Shown here in pieces: positions 11,067 to 14,756 of a DNA stretch of 60,443 bases. Numbering within the stretch: position 1 is the first letter of the stretch; each line of letters opens with the position of its first letter. Location: assembly GCA_944323655.1 (NCBI GenBank), contig CALUTL010000011.1, positions 1 to 60,443 of the forward strand, given 5' to 3'. The notes under the pieces were generated by a model, which was given only the letters and a program-made list of their open reading frames with translations, searched no databases and had not been told where the DNA came from. Source of the stretch: Candidatus Gastranaerophilales bacterium (GTDB lineage Bacteria; Cyanobacteriota; Vampirovibrionia; Gastranaerophilales; Gastranaerophilaceae). The translations under genes were made by a program, and so were the position numbers.

Positions 11067-11813
11067 ATGAAAGAAAATGAAAGAAATTACGAAGATTTTA
11101 TTTCAACAGTAAGCCACGAATTAAGAACACCTTTGACATCCATCAGAGGATTTGCTCAGACAATGCTTGCATCGTGGGACAAGCTTGATGATGAAAGTAA
11201 GAAGAAATTTTTAAAAATTATTGAAGACCAATCAAACAGGCTGATAAATTTGGTTGAAAATATGCTATCCGCAACCAAGCTTTCTTTAAATAAAGATAAT
11301 CTGATTTTAAAAGAAATTTATATAACACCTATTGTAGAAACAGTTGTACAGGTAGTAAAGAGCCAATATCCGGACAAAAAGTTTACTGTAGCAATAGACG
11401 GCAAAACCCCGCCAATACTTGCAGACAAAGACAAATTCACTCAAATAATCACAAACATTATTGAAAATGCGGCAAAATACGGCGAAGAAAATTCTACAAT
11501 AAGCATAACAACAAATTTTTCAGGCTGTAATAATTTAATATCAACAAAAATTCAAAACACAGGAATCGGAATAGCAGAAGAAGATTACGAAAAAATATTC
11601 ACAAAATTTTCGCGTCTTGATAATCCGCTGACCAGAAAGGTTCAAGGAAGCGGGCTTGGGCTTTATATCACGAAAAATCTGGTGGAAAAAATGGACGGCA
11701 AAATTTCAGTCAAATCAATTCCTGATAAGGACGGGAAATATTTGACAACTTTTGAAATTTTAATGCCTGCAGGAGATGTTGAGAAACAAGCGAGGGCAAA
11801 ATGCAATATGTAA
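11067..11813 (+). CDS. Soluble sensor-less histidine kinase
   Basis: 248 residues consisting only of a kinase core. The HisKA H-box is SHELRTP with phospho-acceptor His17. The ATPase domain has the N-box IIENAAKYG (Asn134), a G1 box NTGIGI (164-169) and a G2 box GSGLGLY (194-200). There is no sensor or membrane domain before the H-box, so it must receive its signal from another protein or be constitutively active. Its last 13 bases overlap the next gene, a receiver protein that is the likely partner. An extended -10 lies 6 bases upstream. Confidence 0.9.
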   Translation: MKENERNYEDFISTVSHELRTPLTSIRGFAQTMLASWDKLDDESKKKFLKIIEDQSNRLINLVENMLSATKLSLNKDNLILKEIYITPIVETVVQVVKSQYPDKKFTVAIDGKTPPILADKDKFTQIITNIIENAAKYGEENSTISITTNFSGCNNLISTKIQNTGIGIAEEDYEKIFTKFSRLDNPLTRKVQGSGLGLYITKNLVEKMDGKISVKSIPDKDGKYLTTFEILMPAGDVEKQARAKCNM

Positions 11814-13105
11814 CGCTTATAATCGACAAACGCCGGGAGCTTTCGGTCAAATATAAAAAACTGCTTGAGAACAGTCTTTCGACAGTAATCATCAGTAAAA
11901 GCCTGCTTTCAGCAATGAAAATTATACAGGATAAAGAACCTGATTTGATAATAATTTCAGACAGCATCGACAGTGACCAATGTGACTATTGCAAGCAGAT
12001 AAGAGCCTTAACTTATAATATGCGCCCGATAATCATAGCACTTTCAAAATCCGCAGACCTTCAGGACAGATTGAACGTGCTTTCTTCAGGCGCCGACGAT
12101 TTTATAAGCGAACCTGTTAACAGCGAAGAATTTATCATGAGAATAACAGCACACCTAAGGCGTGAATCGGAATCTAATCTTGATAATACAACGCTTCTTC
12201 CGAACAAAAACTACACTCTAAGAGCCTTAAGACGTACGGTAACCTCTAAAAACACCTGGGGGTGCTTATATATAAGTATCGAAAACTTTAAAACTTATCG
12301 TGAAACTTACACAGAACTTGCTTCGGACAAACTGGTTCAAACATTTTGCGCAATAATGCAGTCGGCATTGAATGATGATGATTACTCCGGATGCCTTTCG
12401 GAAAATGAGTTTATCATAATCACAAACCCGCTTAAAGCCGAAAAAATAGCAAATTTTCTAACCTTTGCCTTTGATGCGGTCGCCCCGAAATTTTATTCAC
12501 CTCAAGATAAAGAAAGAGGTTACATAATCACCGAAGGCGACAATCAAGCCGGCAGAAGATCAGGTTTTGTATATTCAACCATAGGCATTGTTACAAACGA
12601 ATTTAAAAAATACACCGACATAAAAAACCTTTTAACAGATCTTGTAAGCATTCATCATCTTGCAAATATTCCGAACAGATCAAATTACCTGATGGAAAGA
12701 GCTAAAATTTCAGGAAAAGACGCAATAGATTCAAATGTTTATAATAACAAAATCGTAATCGTTGAACCCGATGAAGCAATGAAAGTTTTGTTAAAAACGA
12801 TACTGGAACTTCAAGGATATGAAGCATCCGTAATCGAAAACGGCAAAGATATTGAAATTTACGGAAAATCTCCCGCTGTCATAATTCTTGATGCAGGACA
12901 TGCGGATAACCTTAAAGGACTTAAGATTTGTAAAACCCTGAGAGAAAATTCTGATTTCAACAACACAAAAATTATTGTAACTTCAATTTTCCATGATAAA
13001 GAGCTTATTTTGAATTGCGGCGCAGATCTTTACATGCCAAAGCCTTATGAGCTTTCAACTCTTGTGAAATGGATTAAAATTTTTATAGATGAAATTAATT
13101 ATTGA
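11801..13105 (+). CDS. REC - degenerate GGDEF - REC response regulator
   Basis: 434 residues in three parts. Receiver domain 1 (about 1-120) keeps the phospho-acceptor Asp54 (IIISDS), but the conserved Lys is replaced by Glu104 (ISEPVN). A middle region (about 130-300) looks like a GGDEF domain whose signature is reduced to SENEF (200-204), so it should not make cyclic di-GMP. Receiver domain 2 (about 316-434) has Asp364 (IILDAG) and Lys414 (MPKPY) intact. It overlaps the kinase gene by 13 bases, which implies paired expression. There is no DNA-binding domain, so output is probably through protein contact or binding of a nucleotide by the dead GGDEF fold. Confidence 0.85.
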   Translation: MQYVTLIIDKRRELSVKYKKLLENSLSTVIISKSLLSAMKIIQDKEPDLIIISDSIDSDQCDYCKQIRALTYNMRPIIIALSKSADLQDRLNVLSSGADDFISEPVNSEEFIMRITAHLRRESESNLDNTTLLPNKNYTLRALRRTVTSKNTWGCLYISIENFKTYRETYTELASDKLVQTFCAIMQSALNDDDYSGCLSENEFIIITNPLKAEKIANFLTFAFDAVAPKFYSPQDKERGYIITEGDNQAGRRSGFVYSTIGIVTNEFKKYTDIKNLLTDLVSIHHLANIPNRSNYLMERAKISGKDAIDSNVYNNKIVIVEPDEAMKVLLKTILELQGYEASVIENGKDIEIYGKSPAVIILDAGHADNLKGLKICKTLRENSDFNNTKIIVTSIFHDKELILNCGADLYMPKPYELSTLVKWIKIFIDEINY

Positions 13106-13188: not shown

Positions 13189-13963
13189 CTACCAAGGATA
13201 ATCCTTTTTCATTTTCCAGCCGTCGTTTATTATCTTTGCTGCACAGTATGCTCCGCTACCATTTAAGCTACAGTTACTGTTTATTTCCGCTTGAGTTTTG
13301 CCATATCCGAATGGTCTTACAATATTTTTATCAAAAAATACTTGAAATACAAATACATCTTTACCTATAATATTTGGAGGTTTTATTCCGTTTAAATCTA
13401 CATTAACAGTTTGACTGGATGAATATTTTGCTGTTTGTGATATCAAATTACCATCATCGTCGTATTTTTGTTCCCATGTCATCATATGTACAAAATAAGT
13501 TGTTCCATCCAATGTCGTAAAAAAAACTCTACCTGCTGAATAAGATGTTCCAATATTTGTCCCCATTTGACTGCCATTCATATATTTATAAGGCAAACCA
13601 ATGCCATAAGGTAACTTCCCTTCTTTAGAAACCGTAGGATTATTAAAATATGAAAGCCAGTATTGTTCAAAAAATTTTTTGGTAGCATCCGCATTCACAT
13701 TGTCTGACGTTTCAAAATAGGCCCCGCCATTATCTTCTTGAGCTTGCAAAACCATTTGACTTAATACTGTATAAGCTTTTTTTAATTGAGATATTGTCGC
13801 CTGCTTTTTATATTTCCCGACAACTGTCGGCAATGTCATGGCAATAACAACGCCCAATATCCCTAAGGTTATTAAAACTTCTGCTAATGTAAATCCAGCC
13901 TTTTTCCCTCTTAAGGAGCTATTCTCGGGTGCCCCCCCCTTGTAATCCAATCATACTGCGCAT
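13189..13963 (-). CDS. Type IV prepilin-like protein, reading frame broken by a G8 tract
   Basis: The protein has a prepilin N-terminus: KKAG before FTLAEVLITLGILGVVIAM, with cleavage expected after Gly and Glu at mature position 5. A pseudopilin-type C-terminal domain follows, with a late Cys pair and DYPW at the end. From TTG 13950 it reads 253 residues, but no ribosome binding site precedes that TTG. A good site, AAGGAG (13975-13970), lies 6 bases before ATG 13963. From that ATG the frame reads MRSMIGLQ, enters eight consecutive G (13939-13932) and ends at TAG 13919. Removing one G, or adding two, would join it to the pilin frame. As written the gene is off or very weakly translated. Confidence 0.85.
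13932..13939 (-). repeat. Homopolymer G8 (C8 on plus strand) inside the prepilin leader
   Basis: Eight identical bases between the ribosome-binding-site-linked ATG and the prepilin leader peptide. The tract sits within the first dozen codons, as in known slipped-strand phase-variable genes. It could equally be a homopolymer sequencing error. Confidence 0.85.
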
Positions 13964-14124
13964 TTCCAGCTCCTTATATTTTCCTATGCTACTCTTTTAT
14001 TATATCAATCCTTTTTACTTTTGACAAGCCTTTAGATTTAATGTGCCTTTCAATGCGCCAAGCCTTCCCGTGTGCAGATATATTTTGCGCCAGAACTATC
14101 ATTCAGTGCGTATATCTATTTTTT

Positions 14125-14230: not shown

Positions 14231-14470
14231 ATAACCGCCCTTCACGTAGTGAGCAAGCATTGTTTTGTTTCACAACTTCAAAAGCAAGCTTTGTCTGAGC
14301 GGAGCGAGTTTGCTTGCTTTGGGTGAAACATTTACATATGATTAGCGAACAGAGTGCAGGGCGTGGTTTGCGTCGCTTTTCCACAAAAGCGACTGCCGTC
14401 TGCACAAGACCCGCCGGAGGCTTAAATTAATTCATATTATAAATTCGGTGCGTCAAACAACGCACCCTAC
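14231..14470. repeat. Dispersed long repeat, copy A
   Basis: About 240 bases. It opens with CGCCCTTCACG and runs through a long imperfect stem (GTTTCAC with GTGAAAC, AGCAAGC with GCTTGCT, CGCCCT with AGGGCG). It continues with the segment GACCCGCCGGAGGCTTAAAT and ends in the GGTGCGTC/GACGCACC-type hairpin. Near-identical copies lie at 41029 and 41317. Short open frames inside it are repeated with the element and are not genes. Bases 13964-14230 before it hold only the small hairpin. Confidence 0.9.
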
Positions 14471-14520
14471 TTTTATATTTTTTTCAACAATAGCAAAATA
14501 AAAAAATGTAATTTTAAATA

Positions 14521-14756
14521 CTCGCCCTTCACGAAGTGAGCAAACATTGTTTTGTTTCACAACTTCATAAGCAAGCTTTGTCTGAGCGGAGCGAGTTTGC
14601 TTGCTTTAGGTGAAACAATTACAGATGATTAGCGAACGTAGTTCAGGGCGTGGTTTGCGTCGCTTTTCCGCAAAAGCGACCGACCTTCTAGCACAAGACC
14701 CGCCGGAGGCTTAAATTAATTCATATTATAAATTCGGTGCGTCTTTCCGACGCACC
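14521..14756. repeat. Dispersed long repeat, copy B
   Basis: Second copy of the same element, about 50 bases after copy A and in the same orientation. It differs at scattered positions. Its 3' part reads GCGACCGACCTTCTAGCAC where copy A has GCGACTGCCGTCTGCAC, showing two 3' subtypes. It ends in a hairpin with a TTTC loop. Confidence 0.9.

Follow-up and report, generated by a model that had tools for sequence, protein, structure and literature searches.

The window, by which we mean the whole stretch of 60,443 nucleotides that was analysed, carries a prepilin gene on its minus strand, and a sigma-70-like promoter (TTGTCA-17-TATAAT at 13999..14027, minus strand, 11/12 matches with an extended -10) is predicted for the prepilin transcript. 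The same promoter element is also found upstream of prepilin paralogues at loci L010 and L013. Reading along the minus strand, the sequence runs through TATAAGGAGCTGGAA to an ATG at 13963, followed by the codons CGC AGT ATG ATT GGA TTA CAA, the G8 tract GGGGGGGG (13939-13932), CACCCGAGAA and a TAG stop codon (13921-13919), and a Shine-Dalgarno (SD) sequence AAGGAG lies at 13975-13970. The frame opened by this ATG (13919..13963, minus strand) translates as MRSMIGLQGGGTRE* and closes at the TAG. The prepilin ORF itself (GFTLAEVLITLG...) is intact, reading GGAPENSSLRGKKA and, across the cleavage site, GFTLAEVLITLGILGVVIAM, and remains open to 13189, but it has no SD-backed start of its own and is in a frame other than that of ATG 13963. 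An earlier note on this DNA had claimed that the SD and the ATG lead into eight G and then into a stop, so that this copy would be OFF, and the sequence is exactly as it described. Since the prepilin frame is one base off the ATG frame, a tract of 7 or 10 G would join the leader to the prepilin, again as the note had stated. A TTG without an SD lies in the prepilin frame at 13948..13950 (minus strand).

On the other side of the prepilin gene, a histidine-kinase gene and a REC-GGDEF-REC gene on the plus strand (11067..13105) mark the orthologous locus in the nearest genome, G001. The response regulator (11801-13105), with receiver domains at both ends and a GGDEF domain between them, adjoins the histidine kinase, and both proteins are nearly invariant across species while the adjoining prepilin diverges. 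Between the prepilin promoter and uvrC there are two near-identical repeats of about 200 bp (14237-14740; GAGCAA...CATTGTTTTGTTTCAC...CCGCCGGAGGCTTAAATTAATTCATATTATAAATTCGGTGCGTC).

The prepilin product and its conservation

From the G at position -1 of its cleavage motif (G followed by FTLAEV) to the stop codon, the prepilin spans 235 residues (13189..13896, minus strand) and matches PF07963 at its N-terminus with 27 bits against a cut-off of 21.2. The cleavage motif (G or A followed by FTLxE) and a hydrophobic helix are both present, and the protein consists of a long N-terminal helix, a variable middle and a conserved C-terminal DGWxxKxDYPW. Its predicted structure (mean pLDDT 88) has one long N-terminal helix (residues 2-56) and a beta-rich domain. 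A Foldseek search with this model returned no significant match, and VIA-align placed 1oqw (Z 3.8, rmsd 3.7, 119 aligned residues), 1ay2 and 3sok in its top rows, with weak Z scores. The same genome encodes one protein above the cut-off for PF01478 and four for PF00437, that is, a prepilin peptidase and four assembly-ATPase-type genes.

Compared with the G001 orthologue, the first 60 codons of the window prepilin have a dN/dS of 0 (12 synonymous and no non-synonymous changes), and the part beyond codon 60, which includes the diverged variable middle, has a dN/dS of 0.35; the neighbouring kinase and regulator have values of 0.06 and 0.03, respectively. The values of 0 and 0.35 rule out the reading of this gene as a pseudogene. 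The prepilin middle (13189-13700) is hypervariable between strongly conserved ends, with an invariant C-terminal W in most homologues, and such a middle between conserved ends is the pattern to be expected of an antigen that would be under diversifying pressure.

Poly-G tracts at prepilin starts

A single G8 tract in the window is unremarkable by composition, as shuffling of the 60 kb yields 1.1 windows of seven G. However, simple chance is rejected by the placement of such tracts at prepilins genome-wide. The genome to which the window belongs (a member of Candidatus Gastranaerophilales, 1.95 Mb, GC about 36%) holds nine tracts of at least 8 G, eight of which lie on the coding strand, a few codons past an SD-backed start and directly before a prepilin or a prepilin-like leader; two of these eight are in frame and six are out of frame. 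With about 22 prepilin motifs in this genome, we estimate the chance of a random tract falling at one of them as about 3e-4. The ninth tract, a G9 (G000:C18:16144-16152, L016), is in frame within a Mur-ligase-like gene and is the sole long tract away from prepilins; this gene is possibly a separate phase-variable gene. The tract-free prepilins examined in G001 have an SD and ATG of their own a few codons ahead of the motif.

In the same family, 20-110 tracts per genome are common, with a maximum of 111 tracts of G9 or longer and a few genomes with none. In the genomes of this family that were examined, the tracts are mostly at prepilins, with G9-G14 between an SD-backed start and the leader in most relatives, and prepilin starts are the site of most of the tracts read in G034. 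We scanned 382 genomes of the class for an SD followed by G9 or more and then a prepilin motif, and found this pattern in 60 of them, 59 from this family and one from another (f3), while a control scan with the reversed pattern gave zero matches in the same 382 genomes. Among the matches listed for named genomes, all come from Gastranaerophilales/Melainabacteria, Candidatus Scatousia, a few gut bacteria, one 'Cyanobacteria bacterium' and 'Fusobacterium sp. CAG:439', the last of which we take to be a misnamed member. Two near-complete genomes of the family, G005 and G018, have no tract of G9 or longer and only 5-7 prepilin motifs; the tract system can thus be absent along with the prepilin repertoire. 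In G029, the tracts on contigs C33, C36, C39, C41, C44 and C85 lie 33-261 bases from contig ends. G-tracts of 8 or more are known sites of assembly errors and breaks (PMC4235727). As assemblies seem to break at the tracts, the prepilin counts from draft genomes are probably underestimates, and single tract lengths in these mostly metagenomic assemblies may be off by one, which is a serious caveat for the length comparisons below.

If the tracts slipped freely, a third of the copies should be in frame at random, yet overall only about 13% are. Of 69 copies in the genus of the window, 53 carry one extra G (+1), 7 lack one (-1) and 9 are in frame; the in-frame copies number 11 of 88 in other genera and 14 of 90 in named genomes, among the matches listed. 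The binomial p values against one third are 1e-4 for the own genus and 7e-6 for the other genera, with copies treated as independent despite their relatedness. This bias rules out free random slippage with a third of the copies ON. Each genome has its own modal tract length, ranging from G9 to G12 (G10 in G034, G11 in G023 and G12 in the genus of the window), and this mode almost always misses the ON frame by one base: it is mostly one base short in clades with G9-G10 and mostly one base long in those with G11-G12. Since these modal lengths sit out of frame across clades, OFF by one base is the default. Both modal length and frame are more uniform than free slippage would leave them (30 of the 33 copies of the main family in G034 are at G10, for instance, and 18 of 20 copies in G023 at G11), so that either selection for the OFF state, a mutational set-point or a recent duplication is needed in addition.

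Tract lengths do vary between close copies. A pair in G001 has G12 and G11 with identical flanks over 77 bases upstream and 64 bases downstream (141 in all), near-identical copies in G034 have G10 and G12, and two copies in G145, 0.9 kb apart, have G12 and G10. In G026, 26 copies are divided between G9 and G10, and G023 has 18 copies at G11, one at G12 and one at G10. About a third of the pairs differ in length at every level of flank divergence, and such a constant share is what would be expected if tract lengths equilibrate faster than the flanks change. No same-locus strain variants were found in viral contigs. The earlier note had proposed comparing the same gene in related genomes: the G001 orthologue, recognised by having the same two neighbours, the kinase and the regulator, carries G12 in place of the A+G8 of the window, meaning that the length has changed and the OFF frame has been kept. 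With A+G8, the window copy has one of the shortest tracts of its kind and is probably one of the slowest to switch; the short tract and the OFF frame shared with the orthologue count against the switch reading.

Predicted leader structures around the tract

Fold predictions for the window leader and for two relatives pair the SD arm TAAGGAGCTG (13976-13967, minus strand), the 5' arm, over 10 bases with the anti-SD arm TAGCTCCTTA (13921-13912, minus strand), whose first bases are the OFF-frame stop TAG. In the window, the anti-SD arm is paired in both the minimum-free-energy and the centroid structures. The predicted leader folds are overall no more stable than those of shuffled sequences (z about -0.9). 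As fold stability alone thus gives no evidence, it is covariation and placement that support the helix. Among 99 non-redundant leaders, the SD has a better duplex energy with its own downstream stretch than with those of other leaders, with only 1 of 5000 swapped permutations being as good. The base after GGAG has a pairing partner in 81% of 37 cases, where 43% would be expected, and A-U, C-G and G-C pairs all contribute. In 58 of 107 cases, the CTCC-like core is immediately preceded by the off-frame stop. We infer from these sequence patterns a regulatory role for the helix, in which ribosomes translating out of frame would drop off ahead of the anti-SD, which could then close on the SD, and those translating in frame would hold it open. 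No terminator was found at the window locus.

Other wirings occur in sister genera. G023 has 20 loci with a leader of the MQKxSIxRIS-G11 type, with a stop codon 11 bases past the tract and the prepilin motif 153-166 bases downstream; in those inspected closely, the prepilin has its own SD and ATG. At many of these loci a strong terminator (GCCGTGCCAATAGACACGGT plus a U-run) lies between leader and prepilin. With G12 instead, the predicted leader stop would mostly move to +61/+64, seven bases before the terminator at +68/+71, or else into the terminator. In G026, leaders such as MADAEIKNGQA-G10 run into an immediate stop, followed by a weaker terminator-like hairpin at +13 to +28, and wherever the sequence is long enough the prepilin motif lies 0.4-1.1 kb downstream, with one exception; with G9, the leader would extend past the hairpin. 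The best argument for the tract being a switch is that one logic, being OFF at the modal length, is common to different downstream wirings.

A probable default-OFF switch and its alternatives

These results are consistent with the window locus being a default-OFF phase-variation switch that operates by slipped-strand mispairing and is one of a repertoire, and we regard this as the probable reading. Every check run favoured the poly-G on/off switch put forward in the earlier note, and together they argue strongly for phase variation as judged from sequence. The OFF switch of that note thus stands, with the amendments that its tract is one of the shortest and that it is part of a default-OFF set spanning the family; the SD/anti-SD helix had been missed. 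In the mechanism that we propose, ribosomes would initiate at the SD and ATG of a prepilin gene with its own promoter and read a short leader into the pure G-tract. At the usual length, about 9-12 G, or 8 in the window, the frame would close at the stop directly after the tract, and the anti-SD that this stop abuts would fold back on the SD and block further initiation. A replication slip by one G in the right direction would fuse the leader to the prepilin ORF, whereupon ribosomes would pass through, the anti-SD would stay melted and the pilin would be made. In the sister genera, the same slip would extend the leader peptide up to or through the terminator ahead of a prepilin with its own start. 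As the modal length leaves most of these genes OFF and there are tens of them per genome, each cell would express few pilins and neighbouring cells would differ. We infer, in this sense, slippage in living populations, expression in the ON state and pilus assembly. More broadly, and with somewhat less assurance, we favour the view that Gastranaerophilales have a large default-OFF poly-G pilin repertoire in which one modular leader may have evolved into at least three wirings, namely, frame fusion with an SD/anti-SD lock, a leader abutting a terminator, and a leader passing through a terminator-like hairpin, with the modal length tuned to OFF and cells showing few of up to about 90 pilins.

The main alternative is programmed slippage on RNA or on the ribosome, in which the DNA would not change and the RNA polymerase or the ribosome would slip at a fixed rate, such that the out-of-frame length is functional and gives steady low expression. 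That about 80-87% of the copies are out of frame, that clades keep this modal frame, in some cases through compensating changes in the flanks, and that the out-of-frame genes are under purifying selection would all fit such a scheme. However, the shift needed is +1 or -1 depending on the genus, which is odd for one ribosomal mechanism, and near-identical copies differ in length and state. Moreover, pure tracts of 9-13 G are known from other bacteria to be hypermutable (PMC4965091, PMC4235727), and on balance we consider programmed slippage unlikely. The tract might also be mainly a DNA element, either a G-quadruplex or a recombination hot-spot, serving the exchange of prepilin cassettes. A G4 structure beside Neisseria pilE promotes antigenic variation in this manner, and in our genomes the tracts sit at prepilins on the coding strand, the many prepilin paralogues have conserved starts and divergent middles, and some pairs are identical only across the leader and the N-terminal codons. 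Yet the placement of frame, stop, anti-SD and terminator makes sense only with a translated tract, which renders a role mainly at the DNA level very improbable.

An ordinary gene, either truly in frame and obscured by a homopolymer sequencing or assembly error, or starting at TTG 13950, is an explanation to which we give hardly any weight. Homopolymers are error-prone and the TTG is in the prepilin frame, but the out-of-frame arrangement recurs independently in scores of assemblies. An equivalent of TTG 13950 is found only in some leader types, that of the window among them, and in 104 of 150 out-of-frame copies the stretch of the prepilin frame from the last stop to the motif contains no ATG, GTG or TTG at all. 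An SD-backed start in the prepilin frame ahead of the tract was found in none of the 150. The earlier note had named a start at the TTG as an outcome that would speak against the switch, and on these counts we rejected it as a general explanation.

Poly-G phase variation is already known, and Neisseria pilC and others are poly-G contingency genes. Campylobacter jejuni NCTC11168 has 29 poly-G/C loci (PMC4965091). The likeness lies in a surface-structure gene with a G homopolymer close to its 5' end, control of the on and off states by frame and a combinatorial set of loci; unlike in those species, one kind of gene, the prepilins, is concerned here, with tens of tracts per genome, an OFF-biased modal length and a conserved anti-SD, in a different phylum. 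Leader hairpins that sequester the SD are likewise a known regulatory type, in which, as here, the SD is bound by an anti-SD located early in the coding region; in the present case, the hairpin would act together with a frame switch, and the off-frame stop borders on the anti-SD. In the Pil1 pilus of Streptococcus gallolyticus, GCAGA repeats in a leader peptide act through attenuation, and it has been shown experimentally that the majority of cells have a short leader and are OFF, with low expression, and that a repeat-shifted long leader is ON (PMC3894217). There, slippage of the repeats moves the leader stop, and a change by one unit lets ribosomes reach the terminator and switches the pilus ON, a layout shared by the leaders of G023 and G026, the hairpin of the latter being weaker. 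The two systems differ in having pentamers versus poly-G and sortase pili versus the prepilin type, and in the many loci per genome of the Gastranaerophilales. The window form differs further in that it would fuse the leader straight to the prepilin, with the SD/anti-SD helix in place of a terminator; as no terminator was found at the window locus and its prepilin has no SD-backed start of its own, the locus does not belong to the Pil1 type of attenuation.

Gastranaerophilales are largely uncultured, non-photosynthetic relatives of cyanobacteria that live in animal guts. Our literature search, which covered open-access papers only and is weak evidence for that reason, found no paper pairing Gastranaerophilales with phase variation, nor did this literature yield a default-OFF prepilin repertoire with an anti-SD lock and several wirings in their phylum; the repertoire in Gastranaerophilales is apparently undescribed. 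If our reading is true, it would be among the richest phase-variable surface repertoires known outside pathogens, and the switch could explain why automatic annotation would drop or truncate prepilins of Gastranaerophilales. It would also offer natural experiments within single genomes, in which frame, SD accessibility and attenuation are each coupled to the same type of slipping tract. Besides its leader tracts, G026 carries a second repeated G10 element, TTTACAGACTC-G10-TGAATGCTAAAACTTCAAAATTCGATTTTTTCATA, at loci L126, L128, L133, L138, L140 and L141.
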